A DNA stretch of 23,699 nucleotides from a virus, in the IMG/VR virus record IMGVR_UViG_3300023301_000103, positions 1 to 23,699 of that record, one strand, 5' to 3'. The position numbers and the translations under genes are program-made. Shown here piece by piece: positions 1,821 to 8,843 of the stretch (position 1 is the stretch's first letter; each line of letters begins with the position of its first letter). The notes under the pieces were generated by a model. The model saw only the letters and a program-made list of their open reading frames with translations, had not been told where the DNA came from and ran no database searches.

Positions 1821-3416
1821 ATGCAAATGCAGATAGCAAGCTCTGATGATACTATCTTGGAGCAATTTTTAAAGAGATACAAGCGAGCGCAAGGGATATC
1901 TGATTTATGGCAGAATTTACATCAAGCTTGCTATTACTTTGCTATTCCGAGCCGCGACAAGTATTGGAAGCCACAACAGCAACAGGGTGATTTACGCGGT
2001 ACTCGCGTGTACGATACGACAGCGATTGAAGCTACAAAAACGTTTGTATCTAAAGTGCATACAGCTATGACGCCTCCACAAACTCAGTGGGCTTATTTTT
2101 CTGTTGATAGCATTTGGGCAGAACAAAATGCAGACGAAGCAGAAGAAGCACAGTTAATACTTGATAACTATATGCGCAAGCTTTTTGGTTATTTACATGA
2201 TTCAAACTTTGATGTTGTAATTAATGAGTGCTATTTTGACCTGGCTATAGGAACTAGTTGTCTGGTTTGTAACAGCTACACTGAGAAACAGCCGTTACTA
2301 TTTACGTCAATTCCAATGGACAAATTGGCTATTGAAGAAGCGATGACTGGGCGCATTGAATCATGGTACAGGAATTGGGAACACGTTAAAATATCAGAGA
2401 TTAAGATACGTTGGCCTAAAGCTATAATTGCTCAAGAATATCTTCATGAAGTAGCGATTGATATTAACGCCTCAATTTCCATGATTTATGAGGGCGTGAT
2501 GTACATGCCAAATGAAGATAAAAAGTATTGCTACATGGTGTGCACAGGCGAGCACATTCTTCACAGAGAATACTTTGAAGTTAATCCGGGTATAGTATGG
2601 CGCTTTCAGAAGATTAACAATGATGTATATGGACGCGGTCCGATTATGGATGCTCTACCGTCTATAATCAGCTTGAATGAATTGGCGCGTATCGAATTGG
2701 CAGCAGCTAACTTGAATACGTTCAGACCGTTCATGGCATTTAGTGACACAGTATTTAATCCGCATACATTCAAGATGCAGCCCATGTCTATTATTCCAAT
2801 TTCACCTATTGGTGTGAATGGACAGGTTCCGTTGATTCCTTTGCCTGATACGTCTAATCCTCAGTTTTCTCAATTAACAATACAAGATTTAAGGCTGCAA
2901 ATACGTTCTCTATTATTTGCCGATTCTGCAATACCGGAAGGAAAACAACCAGCATCTGCCACTGAGCTGATGATTACGCAGCAAGAGTTAGCCCAAAGAA
3001 TTGGGCCACTGTTTTCACGTTTACAACAAGAGTTTTTATACCCTGTAATTGAGCGTGTTGGCTATGTACTGGATAAGATGGGATTACTTCCTAAGCCTGA
3101 TTTAAAGGGCATCAAGATTGAATTTCAATATCGCTCACCCTTGGCATTAGCGAAAGGGCAAGAGCAGATAGCGCGGTTCACTCAGTTTTTCCAAATACTG
3201 CAAGGTGTGCTTGGCCCGGAAATGGCTCCTGCATACTTAAATCCCGGTAAGTTCCCATGGATGCTTGCTGACTTAATGCAGATTGACACACGCTTTTTAA
3301 ACACACCAGAAGGCGTACAAGCAGCAATGCAGCAGCTACAAAACCAAGTATCAGAACAAGAAGACTCAGAACAGCAGCAAGGACAGCAGCAAGGACAACA
3401 GGAGCCAATAGCATGA
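1821..3416 (+). CDS. head-tail connector / portal protein (T7 gp8-like)
   Basis: 531 residues, almost the same length as T7 gp8 (536). The N-terminal part (about residues 14-90) shows the family signature: a helix with RYKRAQGISDLWQNLH, then FAIPSRDKYW, then RVYDTTAIEATKTFVSKVHTAMTPPQTQWAYF. Later segments such as YGRGPIMDALPSI (about 270-285), with LNELARIELAAA next, and the conserved PEGKQPASATELMITQQ region (about 375-390) are typical of the bacteriophage head-to-tail connecting family. Twelve copies would form the DNA channel at the unique vertex, dock the terminase and anchor the tail tubular proteins. The C-terminus is unusually Gln-rich (poly-Q with EQEDSE). AAGGAATTTTAA precedes the ATG. 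The next gene overlaps the end by 4 bases (ATGA), showing coupling. Confidence 0.93.
   Translation: MQMQIASSDDTILEQFLKRYKRAQGISDLWQNLHQACYYFAIPSRDKYWKPQQQQGDLRGTRVYDTTAIEATKTFVSKVHTAMTPPQTQWAYFSVDSIWAEQNADEAEEAQLILDNYMRKLFGYLHDSNFDVVINECYFDLAIGTSCLVCNSYTEKQPLLFTSIPMDKLAIEEAMTGRIESWYRNWEHVKISEIKIRWPKAIIAQEYLHEVAIDINASISMIYEGVMYMPNEDKKYCYMVCTGEHILHREYFEVNPGIVWRFQKINNDVYGRGPIMDALPSIISLNELARIELAAANLNTFRPFMAFSDTVFNPHTFKMQPMSIIPISPIGVNGQVPLIPLPDTSNPQFSQLTIQDLRLQIRSLLFADSAIPEGKQPASATELMITQQELAQRIGPLFSRLQQEFLYPVIERVGYVLDKMGLLPKPDLKGIKIEFQYRSPLALAKGQEQIARFTQFFQILQGVLGPEMAPAYLNPGKFPWMLADLMQIDTRFLNTPEGVQAAMQQLQNQVSEQEDSEQQQGQQQGQQEPIA
3371..3394 (+). repeat. 12-bp tandem repeat in portal C-terminus
   Basis: The 12-mer ACAGCAGCAAGG occurs twice in tandem at 3371-3382 and 3383-3394, followed by a partial third copy. 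It encodes the QQQGQQQGQQ tract at the portal C-terminus and is a candidate slippage site whose copy number may vary between related phages. Confidence 0.8.
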
Positions 3417-3751
3417 CAGAAAAGAACCCGTTAATCGAACCGGAAAATTACTTTGATGGCTACAATCAGAGCGCAAAAAATGCGGCAATAGCAGCACCAG
3501 GCCAAGTCGCATTTGATGAATTATGTTTTACAGTTCTTGGTTTAACCGAAGATGGTAAGAAGCTGATAGAGATACTTAAGGAGCGTTTCATCATGCCACC
3601 CGTTCCTGCTAAGTTAGGATTAGACTTTCCAGTCTCGGCAACCTACTACGAGGGGTTTAGAGAGGCGTTCAGGCAACTGATAGGCTATGTTGAAGGGTAC
3701 AAGGCAAGAAAGCTCTACGAGGCCAAGCAAGCAGAGGAGCGCATTAATTAA
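3413..3751 (+). CDS. Bbp19-like conserved phage protein
   Basis: A 112-residue protein overlapping the portal stop by 4 bases and followed by the scaffold with a 1-base TAATG overlap, so it is firmly inside the head operon. The central pattern FTVLGLTEDGKKLIEILKERF, and later ATYYEGFREAFRQLIGYV, resembles the small Bbp19-like domain seen between portal and scaffold genes in many podoviruses (named for Bordetella phage BPP-1). No enzymatic motif is visible and no function is established that I know of; position suggests a role in early head assembly. Family assignment is by remembered pattern and moderate in confidence. Confidence 0.7.
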   Translation: MTEKNPLIEPENYFDGYNQSAKNAAIAAPGQVAFDELCFTVLGLTEDGKKLIEILKERFIMPPVPAKLGLDFPVSATYYEGFREAFRQLIGYVEGYKARKLYEAKQAEERIN

Positions 3752-4491
3752 TGAGTTTATTCAATAAAATAATGGAGAACACTGAAAATGCTGAATCAAA
3801 CACCGAAGTTTCAAGTGCTGAATCCAGTTCTGAATCCAGCATTAGCTCTAGCACTGAACCTTCGTGGTGGTGGGACAAAGCCACTCCAGGAACAGGAAAT
3901 AGACCTGACTGGCTTCCAAGTCAGTTCAAAAGCGCAGAAGACGCATCAAGAAGCTATTCGGAGTTATCAAAGAAAATCGGCACAGCTCCTGACACCTACG
4001 ACTGGGGTGCAGGGAAATCATGGGTAGAGCCTGATTACGTTCCCATGCAGGAATTAGCAGCCTTTGCCAAGAGCAACCATGTGCCACAAGGTGTTTTTGA
4101 TAAGATGCTGGATACAGTAGGAAAGTACCTTGATGAGTTTAAAGTTGACTATGCGGAAGAAAAGGCTTTGTTAGGAGAAAATGCAGAAGCAAGAATTAAC
4201 ACACTTAATAACTGGGCTAAATCTAACTTCACAGAGAATACATTTCATGCGCTAACTGCAAATATGCAGACAGCAGATGCTGTTAAAGCAATCGAAGAGA
4301 TTAGGAATAAGATGATTGAAAATAATACTATGATACCAACCGGAAATGAAAATTTAGCAGAAGGCATTGAAACGCTGGATGATATCGAAAATGAAATGGT
4401 AACTAACTTTGCACAGTACAATTCCGATGCAAAATACCGACGTCAAATTACAGCTAAAATTGAAAAGATAGAAAAGAGAAAAGGCAAATAG
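3751..4491 (+). CDS. capsid scaffolding protein (T7 gp9-like)
   Basis: 246 residues, acidic at the N-terminus with a Ser/Glu low-complexity tract (SAESSSESSISSSTE, about residues 23-37), then the well-conserved RPDWLPSQFKSAEDASRSYSEL (about 51-72) and PDTYDWG, which is the signature of phage scaffold/capsid assembly proteins of this type. The C-terminal region is helical and ends in a basic tail (EKIEKRKGK), as expected for the part that binds the capsid inner face. It acts as a temporary core for procapsid assembly and is removed before packaging. The ATG at 3751 overlaps the previous stop and has AGGAG 11 bases upstream; an in-frame ATG at 3772 lacks a ribosome-binding site. Unusually, the capsid gene does not follow directly: about 2.6 kb separate them. 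Confidence 0.9.
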   Translation: MSLFNKIMENTENAESNTEVSSAESSSESSISSSTEPSWWWDKATPGTGNRPDWLPSQFKSAEDASRSYSELSKKIGTAPDTYDWGAGKSWVEPDYVPMQELAAFAKSNHVPQGVFDKMLDTVGKYLDEFKVDYAEEKALLGENAEARINTLNNWAKSNFTENTFHALTANMQTADAVKAIEEIRNKMIENNTMIPTGNENLAEGIETLDDIENEMVTNFAQYNSDAKYRRQITAKIEKIEKRKGK

Positions 4492-4513: not shown

Positions 4514-4693
4514 GTGAAGAATTCAAAATCTGGTCATGGATTAGCTAAGGGCAATGCAGGTCATGGAACAGCAAGTGGGGGTCTTGGTGGTGCACCAAAG
4601 GGAAATTCGCATGGAGCAAGCGTTAATCCAGTTAAATCTACCCAAGTTAAAAGCAATTCTGTAAAGACTAAAATGAAGGGCACTGGACTGTAA
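4514..4693 (+). CDS. Gly/Lys-rich 59-aa miniprotein with GTG start
   Basis: A GTG at 4514 preceded by GGGGA (4504-4508) opens 59 codons ending TAA at 4691-4693. The product is rich in Gly, Lys, Ser and Asn with almost no large hydrophobics: MKNSKSGHGLAKGNAGHG at the start, a Gly-rich centre (GGLGGAPKGNSHG), and a basic C-terminus (KTKMKGTGL). It is probably intrinsically disordered and may bind nucleic acid or virion surfaces; this is inferred from composition only. It starts 22 bases after the scaffold stop and so belongs to the head operon. I recall similar tiny Gly-rich products between scaffold and capsid genes in podoviruses but cannot name a family. It is easily missed because of length and the GTG start. 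Confidence 0.65.
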   Translation: MKNSKSGHGLAKGNAGHGTASGGLGGAPKGNSHGASVNPVKSTQVKSNSVKTKMKGTGL

Positions 4694-4731
4694 GTCATTG
4701 ACGGCATTAGCAATATTGATGTAGTATGACA

Positions 4732-4802
4732 GGCTCATGAGTTTCACAAGGACTTATGAGCCAGGGTGACTGTTTCAACCTACTTTGATAGGCGAAACTT
4801 TT
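4732..4802 (+). terminator. two consecutive hairpins ending the head-operon segment
   Basis: The first hairpin pairs GGCTCATGAG (4732-4741) with CTTATGAGCC (4753-4762): 10 bp with one G-U and an 11-base loop. The second pairs GTTTC (4772-4776) plus CCTA (4779-4782) with TAGG (4789-4792) plus GAAAC (4794-4798), followed by TTTT at 4799-4802. The second could be a weak rho-independent terminator, the first a stabilising or attenuating stem. They follow the last gene before the replication cassette. The U-tract is short, so termination is uncertain. Confidence 0.45.
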
Positions 4803-4867
4803 ACATTTAAACCGATTCAGACTCGGCTAAACATGTTAATAATTATAACATAAATAATTCACATGGC

Positions 4868-4906
4868 AATCCTTCTCTGAGCGGACAACTAATACGCAGA
4901 AGGATT
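4868..4906 (+). promoter_or_regulatory. inverted repeat sequestering the ribosome-binding site
   Basis: AATCCTTCT (4868-4876) is the perfect complement of AGAAGGATT (4898-4906), with a 21-base loop. The 3' arm contains the AGAAGGA Shine-Dalgarno of the gene starting at 4913. If formed, the stem would hide the site, allowing translational control by protein binding, temperature or ribosome passage. The geometry is read directly; the regulatory role is inference. Just upstream, TGTTA (4834-4838) and TAACA (4846-4850) form another small inverted repeat in an AT-rich stretch containing TATAAC, a possible operator/promoter. Confidence 0.45.
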
Positions 4907-4912
4907 TTGTTT

Positions 4913-5218
4913 ATGAGTATCGAGAAAAATACCCCTAATATTTTACGCCAACTTGGCCTGTCACTTACAACCATAATTAATTCATCAATGGACTCCATTA
5001 AAGACCCTGCATCCTTGGGCATTTACTGCTATTTATCATCTAAGCCTGATGGATGGGAGATAAGAGAAAAAGAATTGCAATCTAGATTTGGCAAGGGCAG
5101 GGAGTTTATCCGCGATAGATTAAAAGATTTAACAACGCTTGGATTTATTAACAAGATTTGCCATAGAGACTCAAGTGGAAAAATAACGCACTGGGAAACT
5201 ATATTAAAAAAGAAATAG
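4913..5218 (+). CDS. winged-helix DNA-binding protein
   Basis: 101 residues. The start is the ATG at 4913; the in-frame TTG at 4907 is too close to the AGAAGGA ribosome-binding site at 4898-4904. Residues about 34-80 form a winged helix-turn-helix pattern: LGIYCYLSSKP with GW.I.EKEL, then RFGKGREFIRDRLKDLTTLGFI, then a wing carrying KICHRDSSGK and ITHWE. This arrangement is typical of phage and plasmid replication-associated or MarR-like HTH proteins that choose between helix positions at iterated sites. It begins the replication cassette, upstream of the O-like initiator, and probably helps recognise the origin or represses the cassette. No enzymatic motif is present. The exact role is inferred from the fold and neighbours. 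Confidence 0.7.
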   Translation: MSIEKNTPNILRQLGLSLTTIINSSMDSIKDPASLGIYCYLSSKPDGWEIREKELQSRFGKGREFIRDRLKDLTTLGFINKICHRDSSGKITHWETILKKK

Positions 5219-5239
5219 GAAAGAAATAGTTAAAAACAA

Positions 5240-5259
5240 GGGCTACTAGCTGGTAGCCC
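5240..5259 (+). promoter_or_regulatory. 7-bp hairpin between the two replication genes
   Basis: GGGCTAC (5240-5246) pairs perfectly with GTAGCCC (5253-5259) around a 6-base loop. There is no U-tract after it, so a terminator is unlikely. It lies 28 bases before the next ATG (5288), upstream of AGAAGGA (5275-5280 region), and may be a processing or stability element separating the two messages. Confidence 0.5.
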
Positions 5260-5287
5260 ACACATCAACAACAAGAAGGATTTTAAC

Positions 5288-6205
5288 ATGGACCATACAT
5301 TTAATAAAGATCTAGCCGTAAGTTATGGATTAAATATTGCCACCTTTATGAATAATCTAGCTTATTGGACCATACAAAACTCTGCAAGTCGCCACCATTT
5401 TTATGATAATCGCTATTGGATGTATAATTCTTTGCCAGCATTGGCTATTGTTTTCCCGTATTGGACAACAAGTCAAATAAGAACAATTATAAAAAACTGC
5501 ATTTCTGGAGGATTAATTGTCACCGGAAATTACAACAAACACGCTTATGATCGCACGCAATGGTTTTCAATGACCGAGTTAGGTATGAGTTTTTATAGTG
5601 GTCTTTCCCGTCTTACAAACTGCAAACCTAACAGGGATGAAAACGGGGTGGAAATTGACGAAACTCAAGCCCAGCTTGATCTGCTAGAATTAACAGATCA
5701 AGCCCAGCCTCATCTGTCAATTCTAGCAGATGCATCTGTCAATTTTAGCACGACTATACCTATGGTAAACCCTAATGTAATCTTAAGTGTTATACCCGCG
5801 CGCGCGATTTTGCCAAATACATTCGAAGAATCTTATTACCAACCAAGAGACCAAAGCGAACAATTAGCAGTTACAGCTGATTTATCAAACCAAACATTCG
5901 ATGAATTTTATAAACTCTATCCAATCAAGAAAAATGAATTAAGGGCTCGAGCTATGTGGCTATCTCAAAACTGCCATGAGATATCAGCGCTAATTCTCGA
6001 TAAGTTAAAGCTGCAAATTGAAAAGGACGCACAATTTAGGGATGGATATGTGCCTAATCCTGATAACTATATCTCTGGGGAACGCTGGAACGATGAGGTT
6101 CAGGAGGTGAGATCAAAGCAGAATAATAGAACACCTGAAAAAACAAAAATAGATTGGCATGATACAAGCTGGATTCATTCCATGAACACTGATCTCTTAA
6201 AGTAA
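5288..6205 (+). CDS. replication initiator / O-like protein
   Basis: 305 residues. The N-terminal 95 residues (NKDLAVSYGLNIATFMNNLAYW, split here: NKDLAVSYGLN then ATFMNNLAYW; HHFYDNRYWMYNS; FPYWTTSQIRTIIKNC; GNYNKHAYDRTQWF) form a winged-helix module characteristic of phage and plasmid replication initiators. A variable linker (about 120-200) carries repeated acidic/Gln text. The C-terminal region (about 204-275) begins FDEFYKLYPIKKN and ends PDNYISGERWND, the domain shared with lambda O-type proteins and DnaD-like primosomal factors. It would bind the origin and recruit the helicase loader encoded next. AAGAAGGA is 7 bases before the ATG. The origin may lie in its own linker or in nearby intergenic DNA, but no clear iterons were seen. 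Confidence 0.75.
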   Translation: MDHTFNKDLAVSYGLNIATFMNNLAYWTIQNSASRHHFYDNRYWMYNSLPALAIVFPYWTTSQIRTIIKNCISGGLIVTGNYNKHAYDRTQWFSMTELGMSFYSGLSRLTNCKPNRDENGVEIDETQAQLDLLELTDQAQPHLSILADASVNFSTTIPMVNPNVILSVIPARAILPNTFEESYYQPRDQSEQLAVTADLSNQTFDEFYKLYPIKKNELRARAMWLSQNCHEISALILDKLKLQIEKDAQFRDGYVPNPDNYISGERWNDEVQEVRSKQNNRTPEKTKIDWHDTSWIHSMNTDLLK

Positions 6206-6226
6206 ATCCTAATTAGGAGAAAGACA

Positions 6227-6697
6227 GTGGATATAACAACCGAAGACATTAAAAAAGCATTAGTAAAAAATAGTTTTACTTACAAAAAGCCTTTTGTAAA
6301 TGCGGACGAAATGATTAAAGTATCTGAGATAGTTAATAAGCTATTCATGGATCTAGCTGGGATTTATCCCGCATTTAAGCAGTCGTGGGATGATAAGGAT
6401 GTTTTAAGCAGCTCAAAGCGACAATGGACAATTGGCTTTATAGAGCAAGGTATAAATAACTATGAGCTTATTGAAGCTGGATTATGCGCATGTAGAAAAT
6501 CAGGAGATAAATTTGTTCCGTCAATCGGTGAATTTATCGCAATGTGTTTACCTCCAAAAAAAGAGATCAAGCGGCAATCCGATACCAGACCTGACTGGCT
6601 GACTAGTCAGCAAGCGATTGAATCCGATGAACACAAAACACATAGGATGGAATTGGGAAAAAAAAGCTGTGCGGATTTACTTAAAATGTTGAGGTAA
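6227..6697 (+). CDS. replication protein P-like helicase loader
   Basis: 156 residues from a GTG start with AGGAGA at 6215-6220. The central block matches lambda P-type loaders: FMDLAGIYPAFKQSW (about residues 41-55), KRQWTIGFIEQGINNYELIEAG (about 64-86, with the RQW and GI motifs), then CRKSGDKFVPSIGEFIAMC (about 89-107), which corresponds to the F.PS.G.F..WC region of P. The C-terminal 50 residues are charged, with RPDWLT. It would bring the host DnaB helicase to the initiator complex. It follows the O-like gene by 21 bases. It is shorter than lambda P (233 aa), lacking part of the N-terminal and C-terminal extensions, which is common in small phages. Confidence comes from the block pattern plus the O-P gene order. 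Confidence 0.7.
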   Translation: MDITTEDIKKALVKNSFTYKKPFVNADEMIKVSEIVNKLFMDLAGIYPAFKQSWDDKDVLSSSKRQWTIGFIEQGINNYELIEAGLCACRKSGDKFVPSIGEFIAMCLPPKKEIKRQSDTRPDWLTSQQAIESDEHKTHRMELGKKSCADLLKMLR

Positions 6698-6703
6698 TTT
6701 AAT

Positions 6704-6994
6704 GTGTTCGATTACGCGATGTACAAAGTTAACCACGCGTGGCTGTATGGTGCAGTTAAGCCATTCTTTGAAAGCGTTGGAATCAATTTAATACGTGATG
6801 ATATGATCTTCATTAAAGATTGCTTAGGATGTATACCGTCAGAGTCCCATAGAAAGATGATGCGCGACTATCTAGATGTTTGGGCTACCAGTGTAGGTAA
6901 GAATAATATCGTTGAATGTATGCATGTTAATGCTCGTTATGAGGCAAGTGCCTTTTTACGGGTTAACACGCTAGAGAAGGCAGTGAATGTTTGA
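6704..6994 (+). CDS. hypothetical protein of the replication cassette (96 aa)
   Basis: I do not recognise this 96-residue protein. It starts at a GTG (6704) with GAGG at 6691-6694, just after the P-like gene's stop; an ATG one base pair of frames away at 6702 belongs to another frame. Visible features are an aromatic N-terminus (MFDYAMYKVNHAWLYG), a Cys pair around residues 40-43, a basic segment (ESHRKMMRDYLDVW) and a C-terminus containing NARYEASAFLRVN. No membrane segment. Tight spacing with the initiator and loader genes suggests a replication or accessory DNA-metabolism function, but that is guilt by association. It is the last solid gene before the capsid. Confidence 0.6.
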   Translation: MFDYAMYKVNHAWLYGAVKPFFESVGINLIRDDMIFIKDCLGCIPSESHRKMMRDYLDVWATSVGKNNIVECMHVNARYEASAFLRVNTLEKAVNV

Positions 6995-7073
6995 CAACTA
7001 TTGGAAACAGGTTAATAATACAACAACAACCAATCTCACCATATGTGAGACTAACGGGGCAACTCAGATCTAG
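6987..7073 (+). CDS. possible 28-aa ORF overlapping the preceding stop
   Basis: An ATG at 6987 with AGAAGG at 6975-6980 opens 28 codons (MFDNYWKQVNNTTTT at the start) ending TAG at 7071-7073. It overlaps the end of the 96-aa gene by 8 bases and has a plausible ribosome-binding site, so translational coupling is possible. It runs through a hairpin and the first copy of the 14-bp repeat, which argues against a conserved coding role. It may be spurious. Confidence 0.25.
   Translation: MFDNYWKQVNNTTTTNLTICETNGATQI
7034..7050 (+). promoter_or_regulatory. 6-bp hairpin upstream of capsid leader
   Basis: TCTCAC (7034-7039) pairs perfectly with GTGAGA (7045-7050) around CATAT. No U-tract follows. 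It lies at the boundary between the replication cassette and the capsid leader and could be an RNA-processing or operator site. Confidence 0.4.
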
Positions 7074-7111
7074 CGAGCCTTAACGGGGCAACTCGTATTA
7101 TTATCGGAGCC
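7052..7111 (+). repeat. 14-bp direct repeat, two copies, in capsid leader
   Basis: TAACGGGGCAACTC occurs exactly at 7052-7065 and 7081-7094, a period of 29 bases. Each copy is followed after 10-13 bases by GAGCCT, which can partly pair with the GGCAACTC of its own copy (CTC/GAG and GG/CC with a bulge). A degenerate third copy (TTAGCAGGGCAGTA) follows at about 7115. The repeats lie in the 165-base leader of the major capsid gene and are not coding. Function unknown: protein-binding sites, tandem RNA hairpins or a recombination scar are all possible. Confidence 0.7.
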
Positions 7112-7151
7112 TATTAGCAGGGCAGTAGCATTTTATCTATTCACTAATAGG
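7110..7151 (+). promoter_or_regulatory. inverted repeat reaching the capsid ribosome-binding site
   Basis: CCTATTAG (7110-7117) is the perfect complement of CTAATAGG (7144-7151), with a 26-base loop. The 3' arm overlaps the first bases of the AGGGGA Shine-Dalgarno (7149-7154) of the capsid gene at 7160. Pairing could modulate capsid translation. The loop is long, so the stem alone is modest in stability. Confidence 0.35.
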
Positions 7152-7159
7152 GGAACACC

Positions 7160-7990
7160 ATGTCCATTTCGTTAACTAACGTCCAACAGATTGAGTTTGA
7201 CCGATATGTTAAATCCGTATACCGCTCAAATGGTTTCTTGTTACGAGAAACAATGCGTACAAAATCCGATGTCATCGGTGCTTTCGTTGAGTTCAGAAAG
7301 GTTGACCAAGTAATTGCTGTTCCTACTGGCTACATGCAAGCGGTTACAATTCAAGACCCAGGCTATAACAAAGTAACTGCAACACTCCAAAAATACACAG
7401 CCGCAACTGGTGTGGATGAAGTTCAAGAACTTACTGTAAACTTTGATACCAAGTCTGAAAATGCAATGCTTGTCGCTAAAGCCATGGGCAGACGTTCCGA
7501 CCAAATCTGTATTGATGCCTTAGCTGCTGATCCAGGCGATACAATCCTCAACGGTGGAACAAACATGACGTATGCGAAGTTTACTCGCGTTATGGAATTC
7601 TTTGATGACAATGCCGTACCGCTTGAAGAAAGATTCTTTGCAATGACTGCGTCAAATATTCGCTCCTTGATGGCTGCACCAGAGTTTATTTCTACGTTCT
7701 ACACCAGCAACAACATTATCGACAAAGCTAAAATCCGTGAATACTTAGGTTTCAACGTGATCGTTATACCTAAAATGACAGAGGGCGGATTGCCTAAAAC
7801 TGGTAACATCCGTACTGCATTAGCATGGCATAAAATGTCGACAGGTATGGCTATTGGTCAAAACTTCCGTACAGAAGTGAACTACATCCCTCAAAATACC
7901 TCATATTTGATTAACGGTATTTTTAGTGCTGGCGCCGTGGTTATCGATAATAAAGGCGTGCTAGCCGTTGCGTGTGACGAATCGGTTTAA
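7160..7990 (+). CDS. major capsid protein
   Basis: 276 residues, short compared with T7 gp10A (345) but usual for a group of podovirus capsid proteins expected to have the HK97 fold. The N-terminal arm (about 8-60) has IEFDRYVKSVYRSNGFLL and R..SDVIGAFVEF; the middle contains ENAMLVAKAMGRRSDQICIDAL (split: AMLVAKAMGRRSDQ, ICIDAL, about 100-120), the standard capsid spine-helix text; and RFFAMTASNIRSLMAAPEF (about 158-177) matches the conserved P-loop/A-domain region. The C-terminal part carries ALAWHKMSTGMAIGQNF. Hundreds of copies assemble around the scaffold to form the head. Strong AGGGGA ribosome-binding site. It is preceded by an elaborate leader and followed by a hairpin across its stop, consistent with separate high-level expression. 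Confidence 0.9.
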   Translation: MSISLTNVQQIEFDRYVKSVYRSNGFLLRETMRTKSDVIGAFVEFRKVDQVIAVPTGYMQAVTIQDPGYNKVTATLQKYTAATGVDEVQELTVNFDTKSENAMLVAKAMGRRSDQICIDALAADPGDTILNGGTNMTYAKFTRVMEFFDDNAVPLEERFFAMTASNIRSLMAAPEFISTFYTSNNIIDKAKIREYLGFNVIVIPKMTEGGLPKTGNIRTALAWHKMSTGMAIGQNFRTEVNYIPQNTSYLINGIFSAGAVVIDNKGVLAVACDESV

Positions 7991-8000
7991 TCCGGTTCGT
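7977..8000 (+). terminator. hairpin across the capsid stop codon
   Basis: ACGAATCGG (7977-7985) pairs with CCGGTTCGT (7992-8000): 9 bp with one U-G wobble and a 6-base loop holding the stop codon TAA. A modestly U-rich tail (TCTTAAACTTCT) follows. It resembles a weak terminator or mRNA-stabilising stem; T7 likewise has its main terminator right after the capsid gene. The short U-tract makes partial read-through likely, which would give capsid excess over downstream proteins. Confidence 0.5.
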
Positions 8001-8027
8001 TCTTAAACTTCTATTGGAGAAAATAAC

Positions 8028-8843
8028 ATGGCTTTTAATATTCGAAGATTTACCCGAGTCTCACTTTCTGATAACACTGGTGCGACATCGGTAGTTCTTA
8101 ACCCAGATACTACCTCAATTACCGTAAACGGCCCTGCATTTTTCACTTACGCATCAGCAGATGATACGATTGCAACAATTTCTGCTGCTAATTACTTCAA
8201 TTCTGAGGCTGCAATTTACGGCCTTAAAATTGGCGATGTAATTTTAACGGTAGGAACTGACGCAAGTACAATGCTGCAAGTTGCTACAGTAAGTTTGACT
8301 GCATCTCCTAAAACAATAACAGTGGTTTCATTTACTGCTGTTGGCGTTGTTGGAACGGCTGACATTACTAATCTTGCGGTTACTACTGGTAAGATTGCTG
8401 ACAACGCAGTTACAAGCGGCAAACTTTCTGCCTTAGCCTTGCAGTATGTTGCGGTTCCTATTGCAGCTGCTGCTTTCAACGCGATGTATGTTACGCCAAT
8501 CCAGTTGGTTGCAGCAGGTGGCGCGAATACGCTGATTGTTGTAGATAAAATTGAATTGCTTATGACTTACGGCTCAGCGGCTTATGCTTCTGGTGGCGTG
8601 GCTCATGCGCAATACGCGAATACAACGTTTGGAGCAGGGGTTATAGCAACAACAACATTGGCTGCCGCAGCGTTCCAACCTACGGTATCTACTGGGTTTG
8701 TGTTTAATGGCGGGGTAGTTGCGCAAACCTTCTCCACTTGCGTCAACCTTGGTTTATTTTTAAGTAATATCACTGGGGCATTTACCACTGGAAACAGCGC
8801 GATGGTGGCTCATGTTTGGTTTAAAATTATCCCAACTGTATAA
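8028..8843 (+). CDS. virion decoration / head-fibre-like structural protein
   Basis: 271 residues, rich in Ala, Thr, Val and Gly with beta-strand character and no charged catalytic clusters. Residues about 50-95 (NYFNSEAAIYGLKIGDVILTV, written here as NYFNSEAAIYG and LKIGDVILTV) match a segment common in phage proteins encoded just after the capsid. Residues about 111-137 hold a short repeat, ITNLAVTTGKIADNAVTSGKL, i.e. two copies of an A-V-T-x-G-K-(I/L) unit seen in trimeric fibre and decoration proteins. The C-terminal half is a beta-rich domain. Likely role: capsid cement/decoration or a head fibre. GGAGAAA is a good ribosome-binding site. Exact function is inference from position and composition. 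Confidence 0.65.
   Translation: MAFNIRRFTRVSLSDNTGATSVVLNPDTTSITVNGPAFFTYASADDTIATISAANYFNSEAAIYGLKIGDVILTVGTDASTMLQVATVSLTASPKTITVVSFTAVGVVGTADITNLAVTTGKIADNAVTSGKLSALALQYVAVPIAAAAFNAMYVTPIQLVAAGGANTLIVVDKIELLMTYGSAAYASGGVAHAQYANTTFGAGVIATTTLAAAAFQPTVSTGFVFNGGVVAQTFSTCVNLGLFLSNITGAFTTGNSAMVAHVWFKIIPTV

Follow-up and report, generated by a model that had tools for sequence, protein, structure and literature searches.

A lambda-type replication-initiation module between the scaffold and capsid genes of a metagenomic podovirus lineage: probable relocation from the early arm and exchange in place

How do genes that initiate DNA replication come to lie between the scaffold gene and the major capsid protein (MCP) gene of a podovirus? 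The question is raised by IMG/VR virus record IMGVR_UViG_3300023301_000103, a 23.7-kb record whose whole stretch of 23,699 nucleotides (positions 1 to 23,699, here called the window) represents a podovirus structural arm that ends inside the large terminase gene (TerL). Exchange of modules among phages is expected at fixed places, early genes being exchanged with early genes and head genes with head genes. In the window, a cassette of four open reading frames (ORFs), including an initiator gene (O) and a helicase-loader gene (P), separates scaffold and MCP. The results presented here suggest, with a probability of roughly 0.78, that an O-P module moved from the early arm to the head operon in one small lineage and was later swapped in place. 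The lineage is known only from metagenomes.

The initial annotation of the window described a winged-helix protein, an O-like initiator, a P-like helicase loader and an unknown ORF between scaffold and MCP, and this gene order was borne out together with its coordinates. All four ORFs lie on the plus strand, as do the upstream neighbour, the scaffold gene (head assembly, 3751–4491; PHROG 1052 'head assembly', 1.2e-5; PF05396, 7e-5, below the curated cut-off), and the downstream neighbour, the MCP gene (7160–7990; PF19821, 1.5e-47; PHROG 3437, 2.6e-43). Its proposal that the O- and P-like proteins are replication proteins also held in the profile searches. The O gene (5288–6205, 305 amino acids (aa)) matches PHROG 11233, 'replication initiation protein', at 1.4e-28 and the DnaD-like PHROG 6493 at 2e-14; the P gene (6227–6697, 156 aa) encodes a lambda P-type helicase loader, with matches to PF06992 (Phage_lambda_P) at 6.4e-20 and to PHROG 109, 'P-like helicase loader', at 3.5e-24. 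A five-member profile of the P family finds lambda P chains in the PDB, namely 8v9t and 6bbm, at 2e-19 and 2e-14, respectively. The module thus consists of a DNA-binding initiator gene (the families concerned are PHROG 11233, 6493 and 270) directly 5' of P, the two being spaced 21 base pairs (bp) apart.

By scanning 2.9 million viral contigs twice, with the MCP and with the portal, 80-odd relatives were found (MCP identity 57–99%), and the statistics of the scaffold-MCP gap were taken from the 78 distinct related contigs having both genes. The scaffold orthologs stand immediately 5' of the MCP in relatives, and the spacing is 119–409 bp in 75 of the 78, nearly all of them falling within 119–206 bp. 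It is 2668 bp in the window and 2057 bp in three contigs, L002, L003 and L004, which form one species-level group from three metagenomes with a mutual identity of 99.7–99.8%. A split common to all relatives, one of the two findings that the initial annotation had named as speaking against its view, did not occur. The ancestral layout was accordingly rejected as an explanation, with 75 of 78 relatives lacking the split; in MEP301 and Vibrio phage 1.179.O, the two genes are likewise adjacent.

The early arm is visible beside the structural arm in relative contigs of 12.9–33 kb. It holds SSB, a PD-(D/E)XK nuclease and a conserved gene, 'rec292', that has no Pfam match, plus O or O-P: an O together with a gene in the P position was seen in G003, G004, G005 and G018, and an O in G011, G041, G044 and G031; no O was recognised in the long contigs G024, G032, G042 and G045. 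The O of G041 is homologous to that of the window (39% in the tblastn alignment), while those of G003 and G031 are similar to the O of L002. Whereas these relatives have O-P in the early arm, the module of the window lies between scaffold and MCP. An O-P pair occurs at another place of the head operon in L060 (L060:2309-3752), between the genes p8028 and p8971, with a terminator-like hairpin and its T run in front of it; within the clade, the head operon has therefore received O-P at two separate sites. The insertion of O-P into the head operon proposed by the initial annotation is supported by the absence of the cassette there in close and distant relatives and with the early O or O-P of most long contigs, but a later replacement by a second O-P had been missed.

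This replacement becomes apparent when the window is aligned with L002 by blastn. The two are 91–99% identical up to position 5211 and again from 6983, and there is no alignment between these points. At the 5' junction (5211/5212), identity drops abruptly past CTATATTAAAAAA, and at the 3' junction (6982/6983), it returns at GTGAATGTTTGACAACTATT. The winged-helix frame of L002 continues into an O of 260 aa (PHROG 270, 1.8e-19), and the P of L002 has 229 aa (PHROG 109, 1.4e-17; PF06992, 1.5e-11). The winged-helix ORF of the window (4907–5218), a 103-codon frame, has 94% aa identity to residues 1–101 of the L002 O, and its last codons and stop come from the new sequence. As far as the sequences tell, this ORF is the leftover N-terminus (the first 101 of 260 codons) of the previous O type. 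Between the window and L002, it shows four nonsynonymous and no synonymous differences, compared with a pN/pS of 0.07–0.22 for portal, scaffold, MCP and neighbours; the 4:0 pattern, although the numbers are small, would fit a functionless stump. The 'winged-helix gene' of the initial annotation thus does carry a DNA-binding domain by profile, but it is a truncated O rather than a gene of its own. An exchange of this kind is also seen in the early arms of G003 and G004, where flanks that are 87–92% identical enclose differing O-P genes and the 5' breakpoint again falls within the first part of O.

In the close relatives L087 and L094, the early-arm O-P has been exchanged (L087:13061-14658 versus L094:10490-12294) between flanks of 87–92% identity, with a common short O N-terminus.

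The O gene of the window contains three iteron-like repeats, ATCTGTCAATTCTAGCA, two direct and one inverted, at 5679–5750 on the plus strand, which form a candidate origin. Lambda and Stx phages have as their origin an array of iterons in the central part of O (PMC7466680); by analogy, the repeats in the window O may be a working origin. The O genes of L002 and L060 carry repeat clusters of their own, which are unrelated in sequence to ATCTGTCAATTCTAGCA. When codons were shuffled, the repeat count lay above all of 100 shuffles for O of the window, L002, L060, G004 and G018 and above 99 of 100 for O of G003; the P genes and the MCP gene were unremarkable. The portal gene also exceeded its shuffles, which is probably due to its low-complexity tail; the portal C-terminus is a glutamine/glycine-rich tail of this kind (3' end of 1821–3416). 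The iteron-like repeats in the O genes of both the window and L002 recall lambda, and initiator, origin and loader would thus be able to move together.

The 3' border of the cassette is formed by ORF96 (6704–6994, plus strand, 96 aa), its final gene, which has a weak PHROG 852 match (E 0.024) and is not in L002. Its end reads GTTTGACAAC, and the TTGACA contained there is the -35 element of a sigma-70-type promoter, TTGACA-17-AATAAT, located directly 3' of the cassette at 6991–7019 on the plus strand (11/12 consensus). Among cassette-less relatives, a promoter of at least 10/12 is present in the scaffold-MCP gap in 56%, compared with 5% of shuffles. In L037, L046 and L053, the -35 element shares bases with the stop codon of the scaffold gene, as it does with the ORF96 stop codon in the window, and hence the cassette is placed exactly between the scaffold and the MCP promoter. 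The initial annotation had also noticed a nine-base string on both sides of the cassette and had considered it too short and AT-rich for a target duplication. We concur that it is weak: GTTAATAAT occurs exactly two times, at 4835 and 7011, 0.5 occurrences being expected, and 9 of 100 shuffles equal this count. The copy at 7011 coincides with the -10 region of the MCP promoter. The other, at 4835, belongs to a promoter-like site of lower score (4816–4843, 9/12 only) and is not kept in the sister phage L002; a target-site duplication by GTTAATAAT was rejected on these grounds.

At the 5' border, a hairpin with a 13-bp stem and without a T run (4732–4762) forms the leader of the cassette and is kept in L002 and L004, and a further hairpin (4868–4906, z -2.6) abuts the start of the winged-helix ORF/O and is kept in L002; both are on the plus strand. 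The segment 4694–4843 folds at -42.4 kcal/mol (z -4.4). The cassette may be expressed from a promoter within 4694–4906 or by read-through from the scaffold gene; taken as a whole, the promoter scan was at chance (15 found, 15.2 expected). With regard to the leader elements that the initial annotation assigned to both ends of the cassette, the 5' hairpins are the cassette's own and common to L002, while those at the 3' end belong to the MCP: they are ancestral MCP control elements and lie outside the cassette.

Based on these results, the following course of events may be proposed. A self-contained lambda-type module, composed of an O with internal iterons and a P, would, once in this lineage, have left the early arm and entered between the scaffold and the MCP promoter and leader. 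An unrelated O-P would then have replaced it via recombination inside the old O (5211/5212) and at a point shortly upstream of the MCP promoter (6982/6983), leaving the N-terminal part of the earlier O in place as the winged-helix ORF. The head genes would remain functional, given that the MCP promoter and leader are untouched. Most likely, O would bind its iterons, P would recruit DnaB, the host helicase, to the origin once melted, and the host polymerase would replicate the phage. The cassette would be the functional, and perhaps the only, O-P of the phage. A further-reaching and more doubtful proposal is that replication initiation is run from the late operon: O-P would provide the only origin and loader, or a second, late one, its firing would be tied to head-gene transcription, and the site would act as a docking point for exchangeable initiator-origin-loader units. 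The alternative raised by the initial annotation, expression of replication together with head assembly, may hold as well.

Several observations weigh against relocation followed by exchange. The O-P of the window was seen in one assembled record only, and no close relative of its O and P was found in IMG/VR with the peptide patterns used. The AlphaFold models of the window and L002 O proteins are of low confidence (pLDDT 39–41), so that the winged-helix fold rests on the profiles. AT content around the window iterons is 57–61%, and no AT-rich tract or clear peak stands out. The direction of the move, from early arm to head operon, is the one suggested by parsimony. Moreover, the early arm is on no contig of the lineage: the window stops inside TerL, and L002 adds 127 bp on the left. 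When the missing arm was sought via TerL and the left-end gene, relatives of only 41–69% and 50–61%, respectively, were obtained, plus the known L002 and L003. Because contigs of the lineage do not cover its early arm, a second O-P is possible there.

This last point bears on the idea that the head-operon O-P is an additional system, with a normal O-P kept in the early arm and a late copy that fires a second origin with head assembly. The arm that is unseen in this lineage contains recombination and SSB genes in the long-contig relatives, and in most of them an O; furthermore, the cassette is in a late operon, and the -10 string of the promoter-like site at 4816–4843 resembles that of the MCP promoter. 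However, two O-P modules were seen in no relative with a sequenced early arm, and the low score of the 4816 site, the loss of its -10 string in L002 and a promoter scan at chance also speak against such a system, which we regard as unlikely. Somewhat less likely still is a functional pair, in which the winged-helix ORF and O would form one two-protein initiator or regulator instead of a remnant and its replacement. The fragment indeed retains its intact 103-codon frame and a DNA-binding domain that is complete by profile, but it shares 94% of its residues with the N-terminus of the complete O of L002, ends at the replacement junction and, with four nonsynonymous against zero synonymous differences (small numbers), gives no sign of purifying selection.

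The cassette might also be the cargo of a mobile element, a homing endonuclease or a transposon, between scaffold and MCP. Endonuclease VII-type genes on the minus strand are present in head-operon gaps of L036, L050, L055, L061 and L067, which shows that such genes do enter the operon; in addition, the cassette is flanked by a direct repeat (14/15), AAACAKGTTAATAAT. These endonuclease genes are situated in the gaps between MCP, p8028 and p8971. Against cargo of this type, none of the four cassette ORFs matches a transposase or endonuclease family at a significant E-value, there are no terminal inverted repeats, and the 5' copy of AAACAKGTTAATAAT is not kept in L002; the sole candidates for a target-site duplication, GTTAATAAT and AAACAKGTTAATAAT, are promoter sequence and unconserved in L002. 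We consider this origin quite improbable. An assembly artefact that joined an early-arm O-P to the head operon would account for the single record of the window O-P, but an O-P occupies the identical position in three metagenome contigs, the junctions lie inside and beside the O-P genes, and flanks of about 96% identity run through, which makes an artefact highly improbable. Relocation into the head operon followed by replacement in place is the reading that we prefer.

The comparison also revealed a covarying RNA before the MCP gene of the clade. This leader element has an outer stem (P1) and an inner stem (P2), each broken by an asymmetric loop with GG-AYAM opposite C-CC; the window copy, a hairpin with both internal loops at 7056–7112 on the plus strand, is diverged and scores 15 bits. 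A covariance model, built from nine leaders and then refitted, locates a single copy per genome, immediately 5' of the MCP, in nearly all relatives searched; the element precedes the MCP in most of L005–L081 and in L087, L133, L135, L137, L140, L141, L143 and L146. Twelve of 15 pairs change on both sides, with 114 double-change cells compared with 31 in shuffles, in an alignment that was fitted to the model and thus favours structure somewhat; slid structures fail. RNAalifold gave almost no structure on a plain MAFFT alignment, in which two hairpins were misaligned, and this was resolved by an element-only alignment and the covariance-model refit. In 27 of 33 distinct leaders, another pairing is available, between the 3' CCC of P1 and the Shine-Dalgarno sequence of the MCP; in the window, the alternative stem joins the 3' CC of the element with the Shine-Dalgarno GGGG (7110–7153, plus strand). 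This alternative pairing suggests a translational switch, and the leader may be regarded as a candidate translational switch or capsid operator.

Leaders from six sources gave no gathering-level match in Rfam, and a relaxed threshold in the window produced chance matches only. A DNA pattern of the inner hairpin, applied to the whole IMG/VR set, hit 38 contigs; in 34 of them, it immediately precedes a homolog of the MCP, and about half of the 34 have an MCP identity of only 26–28%. In the distant marine clade, the model detects the inner hairpin only. No paper on such an MCP leader was found in the open-access literature. The MCP leader RNA, which is not in Rfam, is a separate noteworthy find and may be the more generally useful by-product of this work.

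Among the remaining features of the region, the portal gene (1821–3416; PF12236, 1.9e-79) and a gene for a small protein (3413–3751) precede the scaffold gene, and a glycine-rich ORF of 59 aa (4514–4693, plus strand) follows it, which has no family match and is confined to the window and L002–L004. Before O, there is a small plus-strand hairpin, GGGCTACTAGCTGGTAGCCC (5240–5259), scored as terminator-like on the minus strand only. The base composition of the cassette, 36–41% GC compared with 40% overall, does not set it apart. The gene after MCP (8028–8843) is strongly diverged or replaced between the window and L002, with an identity of 62–75% over 7982–8839 versus 95–99% in the flanks. Many contigs of the clade stop at two shared places, which are the borders of the structural and early arms: the left end, at which the window and many relatives stop, lies about 4.4–5.0 kb before the MCP if there is no cassette, and the right end just after TerL. 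These shared ends are either physical ends or assembly breaks due to very variable early arms. A scan of bacterial genomes with the MCP alignment gave no prophage or host link.

Exchange of replication modules is known from lambdoid phages; their location inside a head operon is unexpected, and no paper on replication genes within head operons was found in the open-access literature. If the proposed course is right, a whole replication-initiation unit was relocated into the midst of a stretch that ranks among the most conserved of a podovirus genome and was then exchanged there, which was probably possible because the module carries its own origin. The locus offers a testable case of whether replication timing can shift to late transcription, and it also illustrates that what is annotated as a 'winged-helix gene' can be all that is left of an initiator after its replacement.

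The comparison with T7 made by the initial annotation applies only to the order of the head genes; the closest isolates are podoviruses of the HTVC010P/MEP301 type, whose portal (PF12236) and capsid (PF19821) markers are present in the typical order. By MCP, the nearest isolates are Methylophilales phage MEP301 (37%) and Pelagibacter phage EXVC031P Hodr (31%), and by portal, identities are 26–31%. MEP301 has the order portal, small protein(s), scaffold and MCP, as in the window, but its scaffold-MCP spacing is 184 bp, without O-P between; it encodes neither an RNA nor a DNA polymerase (PMC8024684). Around the MCP of Hodr, only hypothetical proteins are annotated. Vibrio phage 1.179.O and its relatives also share the order of portal, scaffold-position gene and MCP, but their MCP starts 69 bp past the preceding gene, with no replication genes between. 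Like moron and homing-endonuclease insertions, the cassette adds extra genes to a late-operon gap, and endonuclease VII-type insertions occur in the same clade; it differs from them in being a sense-direction replication module without an endonuclease. A parallel is also offered by the O-P module of lambda and lambdoid phages, in which an initiator is likewise followed by a P-type loader (PF06992). Iteron-like repeats within O are shared with lambda and Stx phages (PMC7466680), and in Stx phages, too, the replication type differs between related phages at one locus (PMC8951638). On the other hand, the N-terminus of the window O belongs to PHROG 11233 and not to lambda O itself, and in contrast to the lambdoid arrangement, the module lies not in the early region but in a podovirus head operon between scaffold and MCP, where it is preceded by a truncated older O.

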